From: Burkholderiaceae bacterium | Lineage (GTDB): Bacteria; Pseudomonadota; Gammaproteobacteria; Burkholderiales; Burkholderiaceae_D | Reading direction: 5' to 3' | Assembly: GCA_019752915.1 (NCBI GenBank) | Contig: JAIELO010000312.1 | Span: 1-18,916, forward strand | DNA length: 18,916 bases | Shown: positions 1 through 9,041 of the stretch, one piece after another | Layout: each line of letters begins with the position of its first letter | Numbering within the stretch: position 1 is the first letter of the stretch | Program-made: the position numbers and the translations under genes | The notes under the pieces: generated by a model | What the model saw: the letters and a program-made list of their open reading frames with translations, nothing else | What the model was told of the DNA's origin: nothing | The model's database searches: none

Positions 1-917
1 CGATCCAGTTCTTCCAGACGCGCCGTCAATTCCGACAGCGGCACCAGCTGCGCGCCCTGCAAATGTCCGAGCTGGTCGATGAACTCGGCCTGCTCGCGCA
101 CATCGACGATCTGCGCCGCATCGCCCAGTTCCAGCAAGGCCATCGGCTCGATTTCCCACACGCCGCTGAAACGCAGCGTCAGCGGCGCCCAATCCGGACT
201 ATCCAGCGGTGGCGCCTCGCCGTCCGGCTGGCCGCAACGCAGATTGGCCGGCACCGCCACCGCCATCTGTTTCGGATGCGGCAGGTGCAGGTTGTTCATA
301 TAACCTGTGAAGTCGCCGACATCGACATCGCCGCCCAGACGCGGGTTGTAGCGTCGCTCTTCCGCCACGGTGGTGACGGTGATGCCGCGATAATCATGGC
401 CCGGATACAGCAGACAGTCGTCCGGCAGCGTCAGAATCTGGCCACGCACCGATGCAAACAGATGGCGCGGACTGCCCTGCTGGAAATCGGTGCGTCCGCA
501 ACCACGAATCAGCAGACTGTCACCGGTAAATGCCATGCTCTGGTCATCCAGCACATAGGTCAGGCAACCATTGGTGTGGCCGGGCGTGGCACGCACCGCC
601 ACATGGTGGGTGCCGAAATACACAGTGTCCATATGTTTAAGGGCCCGCTGCACACCCTGTGCACCGGCCACCGCTGCCAGCCCGATACGGCTGCCGCAGC
701 GCTGGCTCAGACGCCACGCCCCTGTCACGTGATCGGCGTGAACGTGGGTATCGAGCGTCGCGACCAGCCGCAGTCCCAGTTCGTCGAGCAAGGCCAGATC
801 GCGAGGTACTTGCTCGTAGACCGGATCGATCAGCAGTGCCTCACCACTCTCACGATCACCGAGCAGGTAGGTGTAGGTCGAGGAGGCGGCATCGTACAAC
901 TGGCGGAAGATGATCAT
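1..917 (-). CDS. Persulfide dioxygenase-rhodanese fusion (ETHE1-like MBL fold), 3' end cut by window
   Basis: The minus strand reads from ATG at 917 without a stop to the window edge, giving 305 residues that begin MIIFRQLYDA. The first ~240 residues are a metallo-beta-lactamase-fold domain of the ETHE1/persulfide dioxygenase group: DTHVHADH at 56-63, TPGHT at 111-115, GDSLLIRGCGRTDFQ at 132-146 and PGHD at 172-175. By analogy with ETHE1, the iron ligands would be H58, H114 and D133. A rhodanese domain starts near residue 250 (VDVREQAEF at 271-279); its catalytic cysteine would lie beyond the window. Such enzymes oxidise glutathione persulfide to sulfite, and the rhodanese half moves sulfane sulfur to or from thiosulfate. 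This is a cytoplasmic sulfide-detoxification role known from the family. The gene is divergent from leuA. The fusion is clear; whether the rhodanese is active cannot be seen. Confidence 0.9.
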   Translation of the reverse strand, partial: MIIFRQLYDAASSTYTYLLGDRESGEALLIDPVYEQVPRDLALLDELGLRLVATLDTHVHADHVTGAWRLSQRCGSRIGLAAVAGAQGVQRALKHMDTVYFGTHHVAVRATPGHTNGCLTYVLDDQSMAFTGDSLLIRGCGRTDFQQGSPRHLFASVRGQILTLPDDCLLYPGHDYRGITVTTVAEERRYNPRLGGDVDVGDFTGYMNNLHLPHPKQMAVAVPANLRCGQPDGEAPPLDSPDWAPLTLRFSGVWEIEPMALLELGDAAQIVDVREQAEFIDQLGHLQGAQLVPLSELTARLEELD

Positions 918-942
918 GGTGGGACTCGGCGAAAAAAACATC

Positions 943-970
943 ACGATACCAGACTCCCATGATCATTCAA
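943..970 (-). promoter_or_regulatory. Candidate sigma70 promoter for the persulfide dioxygenase gene
   Basis: On the minus strand, TTGAAT (970-965) lies 16 bases before TATCGT (948-943), about 26 bases upstream of the ATG at 917. Match is moderate and this is the best pair in the short upstream region. A run of eight T on the minus strand follows in the short leader. Confidence 0.3.
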
Positions 971-980
971 GCAATTTCCC

Positions 981-1010
981 TTGACATGGCGGCCGCCTTT
1001 CTCGTACATT
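981..1010 (+). promoter_or_regulatory. Candidate sigma70 promoter for the leuA leader transcript
   Basis: A perfect TTGACA at 981-986 is followed after 18 bases by TACATT at 1005-1010 (4 of 6 matches to TATAAT). The start of transcription would be near 1017, leaving a leader of about 380 bases before leuA. That is long for a simple promoter and fits a regulated leader. Confidence 0.5.
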
Positions 1011-1057
1011 AAGCCTATGACCTCGTCTCTGCACCTATCCGCTTTCCTGCTGCCGTT

Positions 1058-1100
1058 TGCTAGCGCCCTATCGCTAGCAGCGCGCCACCTAGCACGCGCT
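1058..1100 (+). other. Two adjacent hairpins in the leuA 5' leader
   Basis: TGCTAGCG at 1058-1065 pairs perfectly with CGCTAGCA at 1072-1079 around a 6-base loop. Directly after it, GCGCG (from 1080) can pair with CGCGC (1096-1100) around a loop of about 11 bases. No T-run follows, so neither is a standard terminator. The same stretch is also open as a 28-codon reading frame (1017-1103) with seven Leu codons, but that frame lacks a ribosome binding site, and its ATG coincides with the predicted transcription start. I read this stretch as RNA structure rather than a gene. Confidence 0.5.
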
Positions 1101-1176
1101 TAATCCGCGTTCCAGCTGTACCCCGGTGCCGGCCACAAGTCGCACCAGTCTTCAAATCCCAGGAAAGTTTGCACCG

Positions 1177-1290
1177 ATGTTCAACCCGGCTAGCCATGCT
1201 CCATCCCGCACCAGCGCCTTTGTCGCGTTGCCTGCGCACGCATGCACCCTGCCGCTACTGCTAATGCTACCGATCGGTTGCCTGGCCTAG
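1177..1290 (+). CDS. Putative leucine-rich leader peptide of leuA (leuL-like), 37 aa
   Basis: A short frame, ATG 1177 to TAG 1288-1290, lies 106 bases before the leuA start. It has a good ribosome binding site, AGGAAAG at 1161-1167, nine bases before the ATG. Near its C-terminus (residues 25-31) it reads L-P-L-L-L-M-L, and another Leu is at residue 36. Three of these Leu codons are CTA, a rare codon in this GC-rich sequence; the highly expressed leuA next door uses mostly CTG. A leader peptide with a cluster of rare Leu codons just upstream of leuA is the hallmark of ribosome-mediated attenuation, as in enteric leuL. Downstream, CTGCCG within the Leu run (1249-1254) can pair with CGGCAG (1306-1311), while CTGGC (1282-1286) and GCCAG (1311-1315) form a competing pair. 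No U-rich intrinsic terminator follows, so the read-out mechanism is open (Rho-dependent or translational). Confidence 0.65.
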
Positions 1291-1396
1291 TATTCCGTGG
1301 CCGCCCGGCAGCCAGTTGCCACAGCAGAGCGCCAGCCCCCGGCCGGCATCCAGCAGTTTCCATGCACTTTCCTTATTCAAGACTCAGGAGCACCCT

Positions 1397-3094
1397 ATGA
1401 TGTTGCAGAACCCAGCCGCCAAATACCGCGCCTTCCCCGCCATCCAGTTGACCGACCGCCAGTGGCCTAACCAGATCATCAGCCGCCCACCGATCTGGAT
1501 GAGCACTGACCTGCGCGATGGCAATCAGGCGCTGATCGAGCCTATGAGCCCTGAGAAAAAGCTGCGTTTCTTCGAACTGCTGGTCAAAATCGGTCTCAAG
1601 GAAATCGAAGTGGGTTTCCCTTCCGCGTCCCAGACCGACTTCGACTTTGTGCGCAAACTGATTGACGAAGACCGCATTCCCGACGACGTGACCATCATCG
1701 TGCTGACCCAGTCGCGCGAAGAATTGATCCGCCGCACCGTGGAATCGGCAGCGGGTGCGAAGCGCGCCATCGTGCACCTGTATAACTCGGTCGCGCCAGT
1801 ATTCCGCAAAGTGGTGTTCGGCATGTCGCGCGAAGAAATCACCAACATCGCCACCACTGGCACCAAACTGGTCAAAGAACTGATCGCCCAGCATCCGCAG
1901 ACCGACTGGGGCTTCGAATACACCCCGGAATCGTTCTCCACCACCGAACTCGATTTCTCCAAACATATCTGCGACGCCGTGAGCGCCATCTGGCAGCCAA
2001 CGCCGCAGAACAAAATGATCATCAACCTGCCGTCCACGGTGGAATGCAGCACGCCGAACGTGTACGCCGACCAGATCGAATGGATGTCGCGCAAACTGGC
2101 ACGCCGCGATTCGCTGATCATCAGCGTGCACCCGCACAATGACCGTGGCACCGCCGTCGCTTCCGCCGAACTGGCCGTGATGGCTGGCGCCGACCGCGTC
2201 GAGGGCTGCCTGTTCGGTAACGGCGAGCGCACCGGTAACGTCGATCTGGTGACGCTGGCACTGAATCTGTACACGCAGGGCGTACATCCGGGTCTGGATT
2301 TCTCGGACATCGACGAGGTACGTAAATGCGTTGAAGAGTGCAACCAGTTGCCAGTGCACCCGCGTCACCCGTATGTGGGCGATCTGGTGTTCACGGCCTT
2401 CTCCGGTTCGCATCAGGACGCGATCAAAAAAGGCTTCGCCCAGCAGCAGGAAGGCGCGCTGTGGGAAATTCCGTATCTGCCGATCGACCCGCAGGATCTG
2501 GGCCGTAGCTACGACGCCGTGATCCGCGTGAATAGCCAGTCCGGCAAAGGCGGCATGGCCTATCTGCTGGAACAGGATTACGGTCTGGTGCTGCCACGCC
2601 GTCTGCAGATCGAATTTAGCCGCGCCGTGCAGGCAGTGGCCGATGCCACCGGTCTGGAGATCACGTCCGACGGCATCTACGAGATCTTCAGCAAGGAGTA
2701 CTTCGAACCTGCCACGCCGTACGCCTACAGTTCGCACAAACTGACCGAAGACACCACCAGCGACGAGCCGGTGCAGATCGACATCGCGCTGCAACACCAG
2801 CACGCGCCACTGTCCCTGCAGGGTGGCGGCAATGGCCCGATCGACGCCTTCGTCAATGCACTGGGTCTGGACATCAAACTGATGGACTACCACGAGCATT
2901 CGATCGGTTCCGGTGCCAACGCCAAAGCAGCCTGCTATGTGGAACTGCGTCTGGCCAATGGCCCGACCCTGTTCGGCGCCGCCATCGACAGCAACATCGT
3001 GACGGCCTCGTTCAAGGCCGTGCTGAGCGCTGTCAACCGCCAGCTGAGCCGCACCGAAACGGGCGCTACCGGCAAAACCGTGGCGTCGGTCTGA
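1397..3094 (+). CDS. leuA: 2-isopropylmalate synthase (LeuA, long form)
   Basis: A 565-residue protein starting M-M-L-Q-N-P, catalysing acetyl-CoA + 2-ketoisovalerate to 2-isopropylmalate, the first committed step of leucine synthesis in the cytoplasm. The HMGL-like TIM barrel begins with STDLRDGNQ (36-44, metal-binding Asp), then VHPHND (244-249, metal-binding His pair) and [11 protein letters not shown] (274-284). The last ~130 residues match the LeuA regulatory domain that binds leucine for feedback inhibition. The length fits the longer LeuA class rather than the ~520-aa enteric type. Start choice: CAGGAG at 1385-1390 sits six bases before ATG 1397; a second ATG follows at 1400. An in-frame TTG at 1316 would overlap the leader region and has no comparable site. 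The gene is monocistronic, with a leader peptide upstream and a strong terminator downstream. Confidence 0.96.
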
Positions 3095-3135
3095 CACTGG
3101 TAAATCACTAGCAACAACTAGCACCAAGGTAGTCG

Positions 3136-3165
3136 AAAGCCGCACCACTCTGTGCGGCTTTTTTT
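3136..3165 (+). terminator. Rho-independent terminator after leuA
   Basis: AAAGCCGCAC (3136-3145) pairs with GTGCGGCTTT (3152-3161) around the 6-base loop CACTCT, and the T-run continues to 3165. It lies 42 bases after the leuA stop. A textbook intrinsic terminator. Confidence 0.95.
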
Positions 3166-4801: not shown

Positions 4802-6163
4802 TCAGGCCAGCTGTCGTGCCAGCCGCACGCCCGTGAATTGCCAGCGTGCGCCAGCCGGGAAGAAATTACGATACGTGGCACGTGCGTGTCCGGCCGGTGT
4901 GGCGCACGAGGAGCCGCGCAGCACATACTGGTTCAGCATGAATTTACCGTTGTATTCACCGAGCGCGCCGTCGGCCGTCTGAAAGCCCGGGTAGCCAGCG
5001 TAGCTGCTGCTAGTCCATTGCCAGCAATGGCCAAACATCTGCAACAGCGCTGGTGAATCAGCGCTCGCGCCAGCCCCAGCACAGGCACCAGCACCAGCAC
5101 CGGCAGGGTGCAGCCCGCCCGCTTCCGGCGGTGCAGTTGTCGCCGCCCCTTCCTGTACCAGCGCTGCCTGCAGCGTTGCCGCCAGCTCCCACTCGGCTTC
5201 GGTCGGCAGACGCGCACCGGCCCAGCGTGCATAAGCATCGGCTTCGTACAGCGACAGATGGCAGACTGGCCGTGCCGGATCGAGCGGCTGTTCGCCATAC
5301 AGCGTAAATTCGTAGTACTGCTGCCCTTCCCGACGCCAGTACAGCGGCGCAGACAACTGCTGCTGACGCACCCAGTCCCAGCCTTCGGCCAGCCACAAGG
5401 CCGCCTGGGTGTAGCCACCCGCCGCGATAAAGGCCAGATACTCGCCATTCGTCACCAGCTGCGAGGCCAGTTCGAACGGCGCAACATACTGGCGGTGGCG
5501 CGGCAGTTCGTTATCGAAGCAGAAGCCCGGCCCCTGAAAACCGATCTCCGTCAGGCCGCCTTCAAAACGTAACCAGTGCACGGGCGCTGCGGCGCTGGCA
5601 CGCGCCAGCGGCTGTTCCAGATAGGCGGGCAGCAGCGCGCTCTGTGCCAGCAGATGCTTGACGTCGGTGAGCAGTAATTCCTGATGCTGCTGCTCGTGCT
5701 GCAAGCCCAGCGTCACCAGCGTGGCCAGTTGCGCCTGCGTAGTCGCTGCACCGCTACTAATCCGGGCCATCAGCTGCTGCATGCGCTGATCGACATTGGC
5801 ACGGTAAGCCCGCACCTGCGCCATCGAAGGGCGCGTCAGCAAACCGCGCTGGGCGCGCGGATGCTTTTCACCGATGCCGTTGTAATAGGAATTGAACAGC
5901 ACCCGGAACGCGCTGTGAAATGGCACAAAGTCCGGCTCATGGCGTTCCAGAATAAAGGTCTCGAAGAACCAGGTGGTGTGCGCCAGATGCCACTTCACAG
6001 GGCTGGCATCGGTCATCGACTGGGCGCCGCAATCTTCGTCGGACAGCGGTTCTGCCAAAGCCAGTGTATGGCGGCGCACCTGCAGGTAGGACGCTGCCAG
6101 CGGCATCATCTGCGGGTCCGCGAGCGGGAACACGCCAGCTAATGGCTGCAACGCTGCGTTCAT
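4802..6163 (-). CDS. egtB: Ergothioneine biosynthesis iron-dependent sulfoxide synthase EgtB
   Basis: A 453-residue protein with an N-terminal DinB-like domain and a C-terminal formylglycine-generating-enzyme-like domain, the EgtB architecture. It joins hercynine to a thiol donor (gamma-glutamylcysteine or cysteine, depending on subtype) with O2. The iron triad is visible: LAH with H62, and HEQQH with H156 and H160. FGE-type motifs include LPTEAEWELAA (319-329), GHCWQWTSS (378-386) and RGSSC (416-420). An Ala/Gly-rich stretch (about 335-370) interrupts the C-terminal domain between the last two groups. The start ATG shares one base with the egtD stop (TAATG), so the two are translationally coupled. 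No egtA, egtC or egtE is present here. A selenoneine synthase (SenA) is a homologous alternative, but senB and senC are absent from the window. Confidence 0.93.
   Translation of the reverse strand: MNAALQPLAGVFPLADPQMMPLAASYLQVRRHTLALAEPLSDEDCGAQSMTDASPVKWHLAHTTWFFETFILERHEPDFVPFHSAFRVLFNSYYNGIGEKHPRAQRGLLTRPSMAQVRAYRANVDQRMQQLMARISSGAATTQAQLATLVTLGLQHEQQHQELLLTDVKHLLAQSALLPAYLEQPLARASAAAPVHWLRFEGGLTEIGFQGPGFCFDNELPRHRQYVAPFELASQLVTNGEYLAFIAAGGYTQAALWLAEGWDWVRQQQLSAPLYWRREGQQYYEFTLYGEQPLDPARPVCHLSLYEADAYARWAGARLPTEAEWELAATLQAALVQEGAATTAPPEAGGLHPAGAGAGACAGAGASADSPALLQMFGHCWQWTSSSYAGYPGFQTADGALGEYNGKFMLNQYVLRGSSCATPAGHARATYRNFFPAGARWQFTGVRLARQLA
5071..5106. repeat. Degenerate hexamer-like repeat inside egtB
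   Basis: Imperfect CAGCAC/CAGGCAC units encode the Gly/Ala-rich linker of EgtB (about residues 352-366). All units are multiples of three, so length changes would keep the frame. Confidence 0.5.
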
Positions 6164-7194
6164 TACGGCACCGCGCGGGCATACAGCACCGCAAACCAGT
6201 TGTCAGGATCAGTCCAGTGCTGCACCGTTTCGAAACCAGCGCTTTGCAGCAATTGCTGGAACGCCTGAGGCGTGTATTTGTAGCTGTCTTCCGTGTGCAG
6301 ACGGTCACCGCGCGCAAACTGCTGCGTGCCACCCTGCCACTGCACGCTGAGCGCCGTGCGGGCTTCCAGATGCATTTCAATGCGGCTGGCCGCTGCGTCA
6401 AAATAGGCATAGTGCTGCCACTGCGCCAGATCGAAATCGGCGCCGATCAGGCGATTCACGTGGCGCAGCAGATTCAGGTTAAACGCCGCTGTGACACCCA
6501 GCGCATCGTTGTAGGCGGCATCGAGCACCGCGCTATTCTTGACCAGATCGATACCGATCAGCAGACCGCCATCCTCCCCGGCGTTCGCACGCAGATTGCG
6601 CAGCAGCGCCAGCGCCTGCACGGGCGAAAAATTGCCGATCGACGAACCCGGATAGAAGAACAGCCGGCGTGACGCGCTGACCGACTCGGGCAGACTGAAA
6701 CCGGCGGAAAAGTCCAGCCCTAGTGGCGTCATCTCGATAGCGGGGAACCGCTGTTGCAGACCGTAGACCGCCTGCGTCAGAAACTCCGCCGAAATATCGA
6801 GCGGCACATACTGCTGCGGGCGCAGCAAAGGAAACAGTTGCGCGGCCTTGGCGCAATTGCCGGCGCCAAGATCGATCAGGCTGGCACCGTGGCCGATACA
6901 GGCGGCCATGTCGGCGCCGTAACGGGCGAAAATCGCCGCTTCGGTACGGGTCGGATAATATTCGTCGAGTTCGCAGATGGCTTCGAACAGCTTCGAGCCT
7001 AAGGTGTCATACAGGTACTTGGGCGAGATGTAGGGCCGTGCCGCCAGCAGACCGGTCGTGATTTCGGCCAGCACCGCGGCACTGCCTTGCGCCGCTTCCG
7101 GCAAGGTCTCATGAGCCGACTGCGCCTGGGGCAACACGCCGGCGGCATCGGGCATGGGACACCCGCTCGAAGCACTATGAGGCATCTGCAACAT
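6163..7194 (-). CDS. egtD: L-histidine N-alpha-methyltransferase EgtD
   Basis: A 343-residue SAM-dependent methyltransferase that trimethylates histidine to hercynine, the first step of ergothioneine synthesis. Motifs in order: LYDTLGSKLFEAI (61-73) and DEYYPTRTE (77-85), conserved at the start of the fold; the SAM-binding loop LIDLGAGN (106-113); FFYPGSSIGNF (179-189); AYNDALGVTAAFN (228-240); IEMHLE (272-277) and TEDSYKY (301-307), where E302 and S304 keep the spacing of the histidine-binding Glu/Ser pair known in mycobacterial EgtD. Start choice: GAAAGG seven bases upstream of ATG 7194 on the minus strand. Other in-frame ATGs lie at 7185 and 7155, and the first ~40 residues are poorly conserved, so a shorter form is possible. 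It is the first gene of the egtD-egtB operon and is divergent from the substrate-binding protein gene. Confidence 0.95.
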   Translation of the reverse strand: MLQMPHSASSGCPMPDAAGVLPQAQSAHETLPEAAQGSAAVLAEITTGLLAARPYISPKYLYDTLGSKLFEAICELDEYYPTRTEAAIFARYGADMAACIGHGASLIDLGAGNCAKAAQLFPLLRPQQYVPLDISAEFLTQAVYGLQQRFPAIEMTPLGLDFSAGFSLPESVSASRRLFFYPGSSIGNFSPVQALALLRNLRANAGEDGGLLIGIDLVKNSAVLDAAYNDALGVTAAFNLNLLRHVNRLIGADFDLAQWQHYAYFDAAASRIEMHLEARTALSVQWQGGTQQFARGDRLHTEDSYKYTPQAFQQLLQSAGFETVQHWTDPDNWFAVLYARAVP

Positions 7195-7232
7195 TGCTTG
7201 ACCTTTCGAATGGATGATCCCGTCTTCCGATG

Positions 7233-7246
7233 TTTGCTATGATAGC
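7233..7246 (+). promoter_or_regulatory. Extended -10 promoter block with palindrome upstream of the binding-protein gene
   Basis: TTTGCTATGATAGC contains the extended -10 TGCTATGAT (7235-7243) and the palindrome GCTAT-G-ATAGC (7236-7246). It reads TATGAT on plus, toward the transporter gene, and TATCAT on minus, toward egtD, so it could serve both directions or be an operator. The identical 14 bases recur at 13185-13198 before the permease genes. No strong -35 is seen. Confidence 0.5.
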
Positions 7247-7337
7247 TGAAGATGTATCGCCATGTGTGACGCCTGTATTACCGTGCGGCGGCACCACGAG
7301 ACCATCCCTGAACCATTACCCAGATAAGGTCAACGCC

Positions 7338-8213
7338 ATGAAATTTTCGCCCCTGCACACCCTGAAATCCCTGTTCGCCGCGACGCTGTTGCTGGCCGCC
7401 ACCTACGCCCAGGCCCAGTCGGCCGACCACGTATTCCGCGTATCAGCCATCCCTGATGAAGCGCCAACCGAGTTGCAGCGTAAGTTCAAGCCACTGGGCG
7501 AATATCTGGAGAAGAAAATCGGCATGAAGGTGGAATTCACCCCGGTGACCGACTACGCCGCTTCGGTAGAAGCACTGATCAATAAGAAAGTCGACATGGT
7601 CTGGTTCGGCGGCTTCACCTTCGTGCAAGCCAAGGACCGCAGCAAGAACCAGATCACCCCGCTGGTGCAGCGCGCCGAAGATGAAAAATTCAAATCGGTG
7701 TTCATCACCACCAACAAAGACATCAACAAGCTGGAAGACCTGAAAGGCCGCACCCTGAGCTTCGGTTCGGAATCGTCGACCTCGGGCCACCTGATGCCGC
7801 GTTCCTTCCTGCTGGCTGCCAAAATCAATCCGGACACCGACCTGAAACGCATCGCCTTCTCCGGCGCCCATGACGCCACCGTGGCCGCCGTTGCAGGCGG
7901 CAAGGTCGACGCCGGCGCATTGAACATCTCGGTCTGGGAAAAACTGGTCGCCGAGAAGAAGGTCGATCCTGCCGTGGTCCGCGTGTTCTACACCACGCCC
8001 GGCTACTACGATTACAACTGGAGCGTACGTAGCGACATGAGCGCCGATCTGAAGAAAAAACTCAGCGACGCTTTCCTGGCACTCGATCCGAAAAATCCGC
8101 AGGACAAAATCATCATGGACCTGCAGCGCGCCTCGAAATTCATCCCGACCAAGGCTGAGAACTACACCGCAATCGAAGCAGCGGCACAGAACGCGGGTCT
8201 GCTGAAGAAGTAA
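7338..8213 (+). CDS. PhnD-type periplasmic substrate-binding protein (phosphonate/phosphite/selenate class)
   Basis: A 291-residue secreted binding protein. Residues 1 to about 26 are a signal peptide: MKFSPLHTLK, a hydrophobic core, then AQAQS at the likely cleavage site. The mature part is a type II periplasmic fold of the PhnD family: VSAIPDEAPTEL near the start, VEFTPVTDYAASVEAL, DMVWFGGFTFVQAK, GSESSTSGHLMPR (the anion-binding loop region) and YDYNWSVRSD. The SSTSGHLMPR and PDEAPTEL wording recalls proteins named putative selenate ABC transporter binding protein, but substrate class cannot be fixed from sequence. Start choice: AAGGT at 7325-7329, eight bases before ATG 7338, giving a normal signal peptide; an upstream in-frame ATG (7230) would bury it. 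It is followed after 3 bases by its ATPase gene. Confidence 0.88.
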   Translation: MKFSPLHTLKSLFAATLLLAATYAQAQSADHVFRVSAIPDEAPTELQRKFKPLGEYLEKKIGMKVEFTPVTDYAASVEALINKKVDMVWFGGFTFVQAKDRSKNQITPLVQRAEDEKFKSVFITTNKDINKLEDLKGRTLSFGSESSTSGHLMPRSFLLAAKINPDTDLKRIAFSGAHDATVAAVAGGKVDAGALNISVWEKLVAEKKVDPAVVRVFYTTPGYYDYNWSVRSDMSADLKKKLSDAFLALDPKNPQDKIIMDLQRASKFIPTKAENYTAIEAAAQNAGLLKK

Positions 8214-8216
8214 TCG

Positions 8217-9041
8217 ATGCTGACTTACCAACTGCAAGAGCTGACGGTGCGCCATCCCGGCGCAGCGCAGCAGGCTGCCCTGCACAGCCTGAACCTGAGC
8301 ATCAAGCAGGGCGAACAGATCGCCCTGATCGGTCCCTCGGGCGCGGGCAAGACCACACTCCTGGCCACGCTGGCACTGGCCCAGCAGCCAGCCAGCGGGC
8401 GCTTCGAGGCATTCGGGGTGGTGCCGTGGGCGCTCGCCCATGGTGCGCGTCACCGCCTGCGCGCACGGCTGTTTCTGGCGCCGCAGACGCCGCCGCTGCC
8501 ACCCCGCCAGCGGGTGGTCACGGCGGTGCTGGCAGCACGCTTGCCGCACTGGAGTTTGTGGCGCTCACTGACGTCGCTGTTCAAACCGGCCGATCCGGAG
8601 GCAGCATGGCAGGCACTCTCGCGCTTCAATCTGGGCGATAAACTCTATGCGCGGGTTGACCGCTTGTCGGGTGGCGAACGGCAGCGCTGTGCGCTGGCGC
8701 GCTTGCTGTTGTCGACGGCCGAAGCACTGCTGGTCGATGAACCCTTATCGGCGCTCGATCCGGCACTCTCCACGCTGACCCTGAATACCCTGCGTGAGGA
8801 AGCGCGCCAGCGTAACGCCACGCTGATCTGCAGTCTGCATCAGGTAGAACTGGCGCTGGCACACTTCCCGCGCATCGTCGCCCTGCGTGACGGCCGGATT
8901 GCCTTCGACCTGCCGCGCGAACAGGTCACCCCGGCGATGATCGCTGCCCTGTATCAGGGCGAGACCACGCAATCGCCCGAGGCTGCGTTGCCGGAATCCG
9001 ACCCGATGCTGGTCCGGCCCGGCGTAGGTGCCTGCCTGTAA
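8217..9041 (+). CDS. ABC transporter ATP-binding protein (PhnC-like)
   Basis: A 274-residue ATPase that would energise import of the ligand of the preceding binding protein. Visible motifs: Walker A GPSGAGKTT (39-47), Q-loop Q90, signature LSGGERQR (150-157), Walker B ALLVDEP (170-176, catalytic E175) and the switch His in LICSLHQVE (H208). The signature and the LIGPSGAGKTTLL wording fit the PhnC group. The start ATG lies three bases after the stop of the binding-protein gene. The last ~25 residues after ALYQGE are a low-similarity tail. The cognate permeases are not adjacent; the nearest candidates begin at 13327 on the same strand. The stop codon runs straight into a tandem repeat. Confidence 0.9.
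   Translation: MLTYQLQELTVRHPGAAQQAALHSLNLSIKQGEQIALIGPSGAGKTTLLATLALAQQPASGRFEAFGVVPWALAHGARHRLRARLFLAPQTPPLPPRQRVVTAVLAARLPHWSLWRSLTSLFKPADPEAAWQALSRFNLGDKLYARVDRLSGGERQRCALARLLLSTAEALLVDEPLSALDPALSTLTLNTLREEARQRNATLICSLHQVELALAHFPRIVALRDGRIAFDLPREQVTPAMIAALYQGETTQSPEAALPESDPMLVRPGVGACL

Follow-up and report, generated by a model that had tools for sequence, protein, structure and literature searches.

The window, the whole stretch of 18,916 nucleotides that was analysed (contig JAIELO010000312.1 of a Burkholderiaceae bacterium), has a leuA gene for a 2-isopropylmalate synthase of the yeast-type class at 1397..3094 on the plus strand (TIGR00970, 798 bits against a cut-off of 697). The best-matching named LeuA is that of Duganella qianjiadongensis (94%), and the genome is thus Duganella-like. 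leuA is the controlled gene of this study: its leader is 380 nt long and has two Leu- and CUA-rich ORFs, uORF1 and then uORF2. Elsewhere in the window there are ergothioneine-type genes for EgtB (4802-7194, minus strand) and EgtD (7230-9041, plus strand), and next to them lies a transporter with a binding protein that has a match to a putative selenate family. The EgtB also scores 388 bits for the selenoneine synthase SenA (cut-off 420). A divergent gene at 3-944 (minus strand) encodes the motif T-H-V-H-A-D-H and a C-terminal part resembling a rhodanese domain, and its product is likely a metallo-beta-lactamase-fold sulfur enzyme.

uORF2 has 37 codons (1177..1290, plus strand) and follows a ribosome-binding site, AGGAAAG at 1161..1167 (plus strand), which is conserved in the portion of the genus alignment that was inspected. 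This frame, with 106 nt from its stop codon to the leuA ATG at 1397, had been proposed to be a Leu leader peptide in the first-pass annotation, and it was found as described. The control-codon run CTG CCG CTA CTG CTA ATG CTA (1249..1269, plus strand) encodes L-P-L-L-L-M-L with CTA codons at 1255, 1261, and 1267. Both the Leu content and the CTA content are above chance: six of the last 14 residues are Leu (P 0.005), and three of the seven Leu codons are CTA, as compared with 5 of 385 (1.3%) in nine hand-picked long ORFs of the window, leuA among them (P 7e-5).

The same annotation asked for a comparison of relatives. I collected 203 leuA upstream regions, in which some genomes are represented twice by near-identical copies with different ids. 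Many of the counts below refer to 100 chosen loci bearing the conserved RNA element described in the next section. They are my own pick from the loci with matches to the model of that element (R1), plus L047; near-duplicates, weaker matches, and some strong matches (for example, L168, L174, L188, and L203) were left out, and many of the 100 also trained R1. It was revealed that the frame, the Leu/CTA run, and their position are kept, with the element in 34 of 37 loci of the genus and CTA in 99 of the 100 chosen loci at the position of the last CTA codon (1267 in the window). All 100 have a uORF2 frame with an in-frame start codon and a stop codon. The median stop-free run ahead of the last CTA codon is 57.5 codons in the uORF2 frame versus 10.5 and 41 in the other frames. 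A Shine-Dalgarno-like core was found by a script rule in 60 of the 100 loci, and 25 of the 85 loci that bear uORF1 have no uORF2 ATG with such a core by the rule used. The CTA share of the Leu codons is 41% (244/598) in 97 distinct uORF2 sequences and 57% (370/652) in 81 distinct uORF1 sequences.

The earlier description of the leader was correct for uORF2 but incomplete, since it missed the second Leu/CTA-rich ORF upstream. This ORF, uORF1 (1017..1103, plus strand), has 28 codons encoding MTSSLHLSAFLLPFASALSLAARHLARA, seven of them Leu codons and four of these CTA. It follows a promoter-like site at 981..1010 (plus strand), with the -35 hexamer TTGACA at 981-986, an 18-nt spacer, and the -10 hexamer TACATT at 1005-1010. 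No other promoter-like site occurs in 900-1450 (shuffle mean 0.2), and relatives of the window have similar hexamers and spacing ahead of uORF1; transcription would start from it. Because the ATG lies only 6 nt past the TACATT box, uORF1 is probably leaderless. When an ATG was required 3-11 nt past a promoter-like site, and four or more Leu codons in the ORF that it opens, a promoter-proximal Leu ORF was found in 145 of the 203 regions (some of them two ids of one genome). The gap between the -10 box and the ATG is 6 nt in 81 and 7 nt in 33, together 114, of 122 distinct uORF1 sequences. All 37 loci of the genus, the window included, have uORF1, and 85 of the 100 chosen loci have the uORF1 arrangement. 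The pN/pS of uORF1 is 0.61 versus 0.71 in both other frames, which is not decisive, and the excess of Leu in uORF1 of the window is borderline (P 0.06).

Of the 15 chosen loci lacking uORF1, 13 come from genera or isolates of Alcaligenaceae and two from MAGs, one of Pandoraea and one with the title Burkholderiaceae. Ten such loci were printed, and in several of them a single uORF2-type ORF begins just past a TGNT(T/C)GACT-like box, which may be an extended -10.

The end of uORF1 was also considered as a site of RNA structure, and this candidate was rejected: the alifold energy is -4.6 kcal/mol in 24 Duganella sequences and 0 in two other groups. Separately, 1041-1049 (codons 9-11 of uORF1, GCUUUCCUG) can form 9 bp with 1160-1168, the ribosome-binding site of uORF2. 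This pairing is strong in the window, where none of 100 shuffles is as good and the fold of 1018-1180 has a z of -3.04. Pairing of this type falls below z -2 in 24 of 85 loci (mean z -1.24), and 18 of the 24 belong to the window's genus; it is strong in many Duganella loci and seldom so elsewhere. It is a candidate for coupling uORF1 and uORF2.

An RNA element around the uORF2 stop codon

Near the end of uORF2 lies a conserved RNA element at 1264..1325 (plus strand), which scores 77.2 bits with R1, the window being one of the 85 training sequences. The element has two helices. S1 pairs 1276..1286 with 1303..1313 (plus strand), as indicated by covariation, with 8 of its 11 pairs changed on both sides. 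S2 pairs GUGGC at 1297..1301 with GCCAC at 1318..1322 (plus strand); three of its five pairs are changed on both sides, and all five are kept in 99 of the 100 chosen loci. S1 and S2 cross, since the 5′ arm of S2 sits in the S1 loop, and they would be mutually exclusive. The stop codon of uORF2 (1288-1290) also lies in the S1 loop. The same is true in 91 of the 100 chosen loci, with the offset, counted from where the 5′ arm ends, always being 2, 5, or 8, while the stop codon comes earlier in six loci and later in three.

The motif is present in 113 and absent from 90 of the 203 upstream regions. From the 113, 103 were taken and 10 were missed by the end rule, and 85 distinct sequences made up the alignment A1. 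In A1, 97.4% of the cells pair, and 47 cells are changed on both sides versus 16.9 in shuffles. Further pair types are no commoner in A1 than in shuffles (403/500), and both-side changes occur in only one of the five S2 pairs. A wider alignment of 100 sequences, a separate choice of mine including weaker and distant loci, has 97.3% of the cells paired, both-side changes in 11 of the 16 pairs, and 86 cells changed on both sides versus 22.8 +/- 3.5 in shuffles (0/500); it was fitted to a model containing S1 and not S2, which favours S1. For S2 alone, this alignment has six cells changed on both sides versus 0.2 in shuffles (0/500). When S2 was slid by -3 columns on this alignment (A3), the covariation score was 0.143 versus 0.087, but only 77.7% of the cells pair. 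In the distant members L091, L188, L190, and L216, the arms are much rewritten while the pairing is kept. Moreover, the codons around the uORF2 stop codon have nearly invariant third positions and variable first and second positions (ATC/ACC and CCG/GCG), which indicates that the constraint acts on the RNA. Taken by itself, the fold of 1240-1410 has an ordinary energy (z -0.90), so that the case rests on covariation and not on energy.

The conserved pairs are those of S1 and S2. The pairings that the first-pass annotation proposed, 1282-1286 with 1311-1315 and 1249-1254 (CTGCCG) with 1306-1311, can form in the window but are kept in only 9 and 6 of the 100 loci, respectively. A search of Rfam (E up to 1) gave no family matching the leuA leader and no T-box. 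It had a single match in all, a weak one to Leu_leader (RF00512) of 22.4 bits (gathering threshold 50) at 3060-3165, over the leuA stop codon, which is probably due to chance.

Ribosome position and read-out

In a masking simulation, the footprint of a ribosome was masked at the uORF2 stop codon or at stalled positions, and the probabilities of S1 and S2 were averaged over the 100 chosen loci. The mean S1 probability is 0.69 without a ribosome and 0.01 with a ribosome at the stop codon (0.00 in the window). A stall two or four codons ahead of the last CTA codon gives 0.77 or 0.79 (0.66 in both states in the window), while a stall on the last CTA codon lowers the value to 0.30 (0.15 in the window). 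This is the geometry of a switch that the ribosome reads and in which a stall lets S1 form. The mean S2 probability is 0.04 in the free RNA, 0.06 with the ribosome at the stop codon, and 0.17 with a stall on the last CTA codon, and in the window it is at most 0.02 in the simulated states. Since S2 is rarely predicted in any state, the claim that S2 replaces S1 is weakened. A ribosome at the stop codon would cover part of the 5′ arm of S2 too.

The reading that I prefer, with a probability of roughly 0.6, is that the leuA leader senses leucine by ribosome-mediated attenuation and does so with two leader peptides in series. When charged Leu-tRNA, above all the one reading CUA, is plentiful, the ribosome would reach the uORF2 stop codon and cover the 5′ arm of S1. 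S1 would be blocked, S2 might form instead, and transcription would stop early. Under a shortage of charged Leu-tRNA, the ribosome would stall on the CUA run, S1 would form and exclude S2, and leuA would be transcribed. uORF1 would be the first checkpoint in the series and would sharpen the response. Because no RNA structure at the end of uORF1 was found to be conserved between genera, uORF1 probably acts via translation, RNA polymerase coupling, or Rho access rather than via hairpins.

The missing U-tract had been noted before, and the scan agrees with it: no canonical intrinsic terminator was found in the window leader. Between uORF1 and uORF2, terminator-like sites occur in 5 of 85 loci versus 5.2 in shuffles; between the element and leuA, they occur in 8 of the 100 loci versus 7.2 in shuffles and are not enriched. 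Seven of these eight sites consist of S2 followed by a T-rich tail. At least five T in eight nucleotides within 20 nt past S2 were found in 24 of the 100 loci against a background of 11%, where related loci are not independent and one locus has no detectable S2 arm. Cupriavidus metallidurans CH34 has S2 followed by CG-TTTTT. Such T-runs after S2, resembling a weak intrinsic terminator, occur in Cupriavidus and several Alcaligenaceae; in scans of single loci by the rule of the program used, L044 has one terminator (shuffle mean 0.4), and L042 and L085 have none.

Since the T-run after S2 is absent in the window, Rho acting on C-rich, G-poor stretches would be the likelier read-out there, which is the weakest step of the preferred reading. 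One such stretch is the spacer from uORF1 to the ribosome-binding site of uORF2 (1104..1160, plus strand; 24 C and 12 G of 57), and another runs from the element to the ribosome-binding site of leuA (1326..1382, plus strand; 21 C and 12 G of 57). By composition, they resemble Rho sites. C exceeds G in the spacer in 84 of 85 loci (control 56/85) and in the second stretch in all 54 uORF1-bearing loci where this stretch is at least 30 nt long. The read-out in Duganella may be Rho-dependent, weakly intrinsic, or translational. A more specific version of the preferred reading is tentative: a leucine RNA absent from Rfam, extending from Burkholderiales to some other members of the class, might sense through a stop codon in the loop of crossing helices, and the Oxalobacteraceae might have added a leaderless peptide in front, making a two-stage attenuator read by Rho and not by an intrinsic terminator. 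If the two-stage reading is true, a shortage of leucine would have to be sensed at both stages, which would make the response switch-like.

The sign of the switch may be the opposite, although I consider this rather unlikely. S1, with its 11 GC-rich pairs, would then be the attenuating hairpin and would form once the ribosome has come off at the stop codon, and a stall on the last CUA codon would keep S1 open and allow leuA expression. S1 is indeed far stabler than S2 (0.69 versus 0.04 in the free RNA), a stall on the last CTA codon does lower it to 0.30, and L076, L160, and L167 have T-runs directly after S1 (five T in eight). However, at least five T in eight within 12 nt after S1 occur in only 3 of the 100 loci, a count not directly comparable with the 24 after S2, which spans 20 nt. 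Stalls on earlier Leu codons leave S1 free, and S2 would have no role in spite of its conservation.

Control of translation rather than transcription, in which the leader would govern access to the leuA ribosome-binding site whether leucine is sensed as above or in another way, overlaps the preferred reading and is unlikely as a separate explanation. The lack of enriched terminators fits it, as does the actinobacterial LEU element, whose Leu codons are proposed to pair with the Shine-Dalgarno box of leuA (PMC1262725). In the present loci, however, the Leu run pairs with the leuA ribosome-binding site no better than in shuffled sequences (mean z +0.31, n=100), and this pairing was rejected. The spacing between the element and leuA ranges from 33 to 151 nt among the 100 chosen loci.

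It is still less likely that S1 and S2 jointly form a riboswitch-like pseudoknot which binds leucine, tRNA, or a protein while the peptides only set the ribosome traffic. Both crossing helices are conserved with both-side changes, the near-invariant third codon positions point to selection on the RNA, and the LEU element was likewise drawn as a pseudoknot (PMC1262725). A ligand-binding RNA, however, would need neither the CTA codons nor the stop codon in the S1 loop, which are kept. Moreover, only a short connection leads from S1 to S2 (in the window, 4 nt versus 11 pairs), and it seems doubtful that both helices are full-length at once.

That uORF2 encodes an arrest peptide stalling the ribosome at the stop codon is very improbable. 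Its tail, L-P-I-G-C-L/R-A, is alike from Duganella to Bordetella, but the conservation is at the RNA level, and L030, L091, L186, and L190 stop before C-L-A yet keep S1, partly by compensating changes. Finally, short frames are common (20 frames of at least 20 amino acids overlap 900-1450), but the idea of uORF2 as a chance ORF without function is contradicted by the conservation, codon, and covariation results and is hardly credible.

Distribution of the leader forms

Is this element common outside the genus? In the window's own genome, R1 has a single strong match (2e-14; the next is 0.14). I searched 300 order-level, 321 class-level, and 349 phylum-level genomes with R1 at E up to 0.01. Outside the own genome, 29 distinct matches were found, 27 of them just before leuA and two (L225 and L237) not, and some of the matched genomes hold training loci (for example, G116, G139, and G088), so that those matches are not independent. 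The element is spread over Oxalobacteraceae, Alcaligenaceae, Cupriavidus, and one Pandoraea MAG. R1 also has weaker matches, in Methylobacillus (28 bits) and in genomes that belong to the class but not to the order. A search of phages with the element gave no match, and a search of plasmids found it on three Cupriavidus replicons. In two Cupriavidus loci (L239 and L240), leuA is located on the second large replicon; its leader is of the single-peptide form and has T-rich stretches past S2. No uORF1 was found in the element-bearing Alcaligenaceae and Cupriavidus.

Within the genus, the element is kept in the 34 of 37 genomes mentioned above, the window included. Among five further loci of the genus, L126, L127, L135, and L138 have the element and L143 does not. 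uORF2 and the element are absent while uORF1 is retained in L033, L034, L038 (of which L059 is a named copy), and L143 of the genus and also in L058 of Massilia eburnea. This loss is probably secondary, since Alcaligenaceae and Cupriavidus carry the element. In summary, leuA leaders exist in three forms: single-peptide, two-peptide, and second-peptide-lost.

A few loci differ from these. Genome G409 has a second leuA of the same class (L228) with its own weaker copy of the element (51.6 bits), in addition to the one that the genome already has. L108, L111, L117, and L116 have another conserved promoter-proximal ORF before leuA, ending LMLRLLRVDVERRLRPAR (a variant in L116). This is a different leader class; R1 has no match in L108, L111, and L117 and a weak match in L116 (28.7 bits). 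In Parvibaculum sedimenti, an alphaproteobacterium, leuA has a Leu-rich promoter-proximal ORF and also a weak R1 match (33 bits; L113, 1402-1457).

Comparison with known systems

Literature on leuA leaders was searched, largely among open-access papers, for Betaproteobacteria, Bordetella, Burkholderia, Rho, tandem leader peptides, transcription start sites, and citations of earlier comparative studies; none of the titles listed describes such a leader. Leucine attenuators are reportedly treated by Vitreschak et al. in 2004. In the enteric leuL, a Leu-rich leader peptide with rare CUA codons precedes leuA, and mutually exclusive RNA structures are read by the ribosome. The present leader likewise has a Leu-rich, CUA-bearing peptide ahead of leuA. 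It differs from leuL in that the RF00512 model finds nothing in the leader at E up to 1, that no U-tract terminator is present in the window, that there are two peptides, the first probably leaderless, that the stop codon lies in the S1 loop, and that the helices cross and share no arms.

The tna attenuator of E. coli is Rho-dependent, and the ribosome on its leader peptide may control the access of Rho. Here, in contrast, a role of Rho is suggested by base composition alone. The article on the LEU element cites tna as a precedent (PMC1262725). According to the same article, the LEU element has a base stem formed by the Leu codons and the leuA Shine-Dalgarno box (PMC1262725). It resembles the present leader in plan only: a Leu-rich peptide before leuA, a pseudoknot or alternative helices, and no obvious terminator. 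However, the LEU-type base stem is not seen here (z +0.31), and the accessible description of LEU has no second peptide (PMC1262725).

For the leaderless peptide, a precedent is the trpL attenuator of Sinorhizobium meliloti, whose transcript starts at the ATG of the leader peptide and which controls trpE(G) (PMC7298713). A start of the leader-peptide transcript at the ATG is predicted here as well, from the gap of 6-7 nt behind the -10 box. The trpL attenuator has one peptide, for tryptophan (PMC7298713), while here the probably leaderless ORF is followed by another leader ORF that has a ribosome-binding site of its own. Two leader peptides before one gene are also described for ermB, but that case concerns antibiotic-induced translational attenuation and not amino-acid supply (PMC8274638).

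The two-peptide leader with crossing helices is apparently an uncatalogued version of the classic leucine attenuator. With it, the catalogue of amino-acid attenuators would gain an RNA family from a large group comprising Oxalobacteraceae, Cupriavidus, and Alcaligenaceae, for which the Rfam and literature searches described above yielded no leucine attenuator. The strong preference for CUA offers a clean codon-level handle, and the three leader forms on one gene make a natural comparison for the role of a leader peptide without a following terminator.
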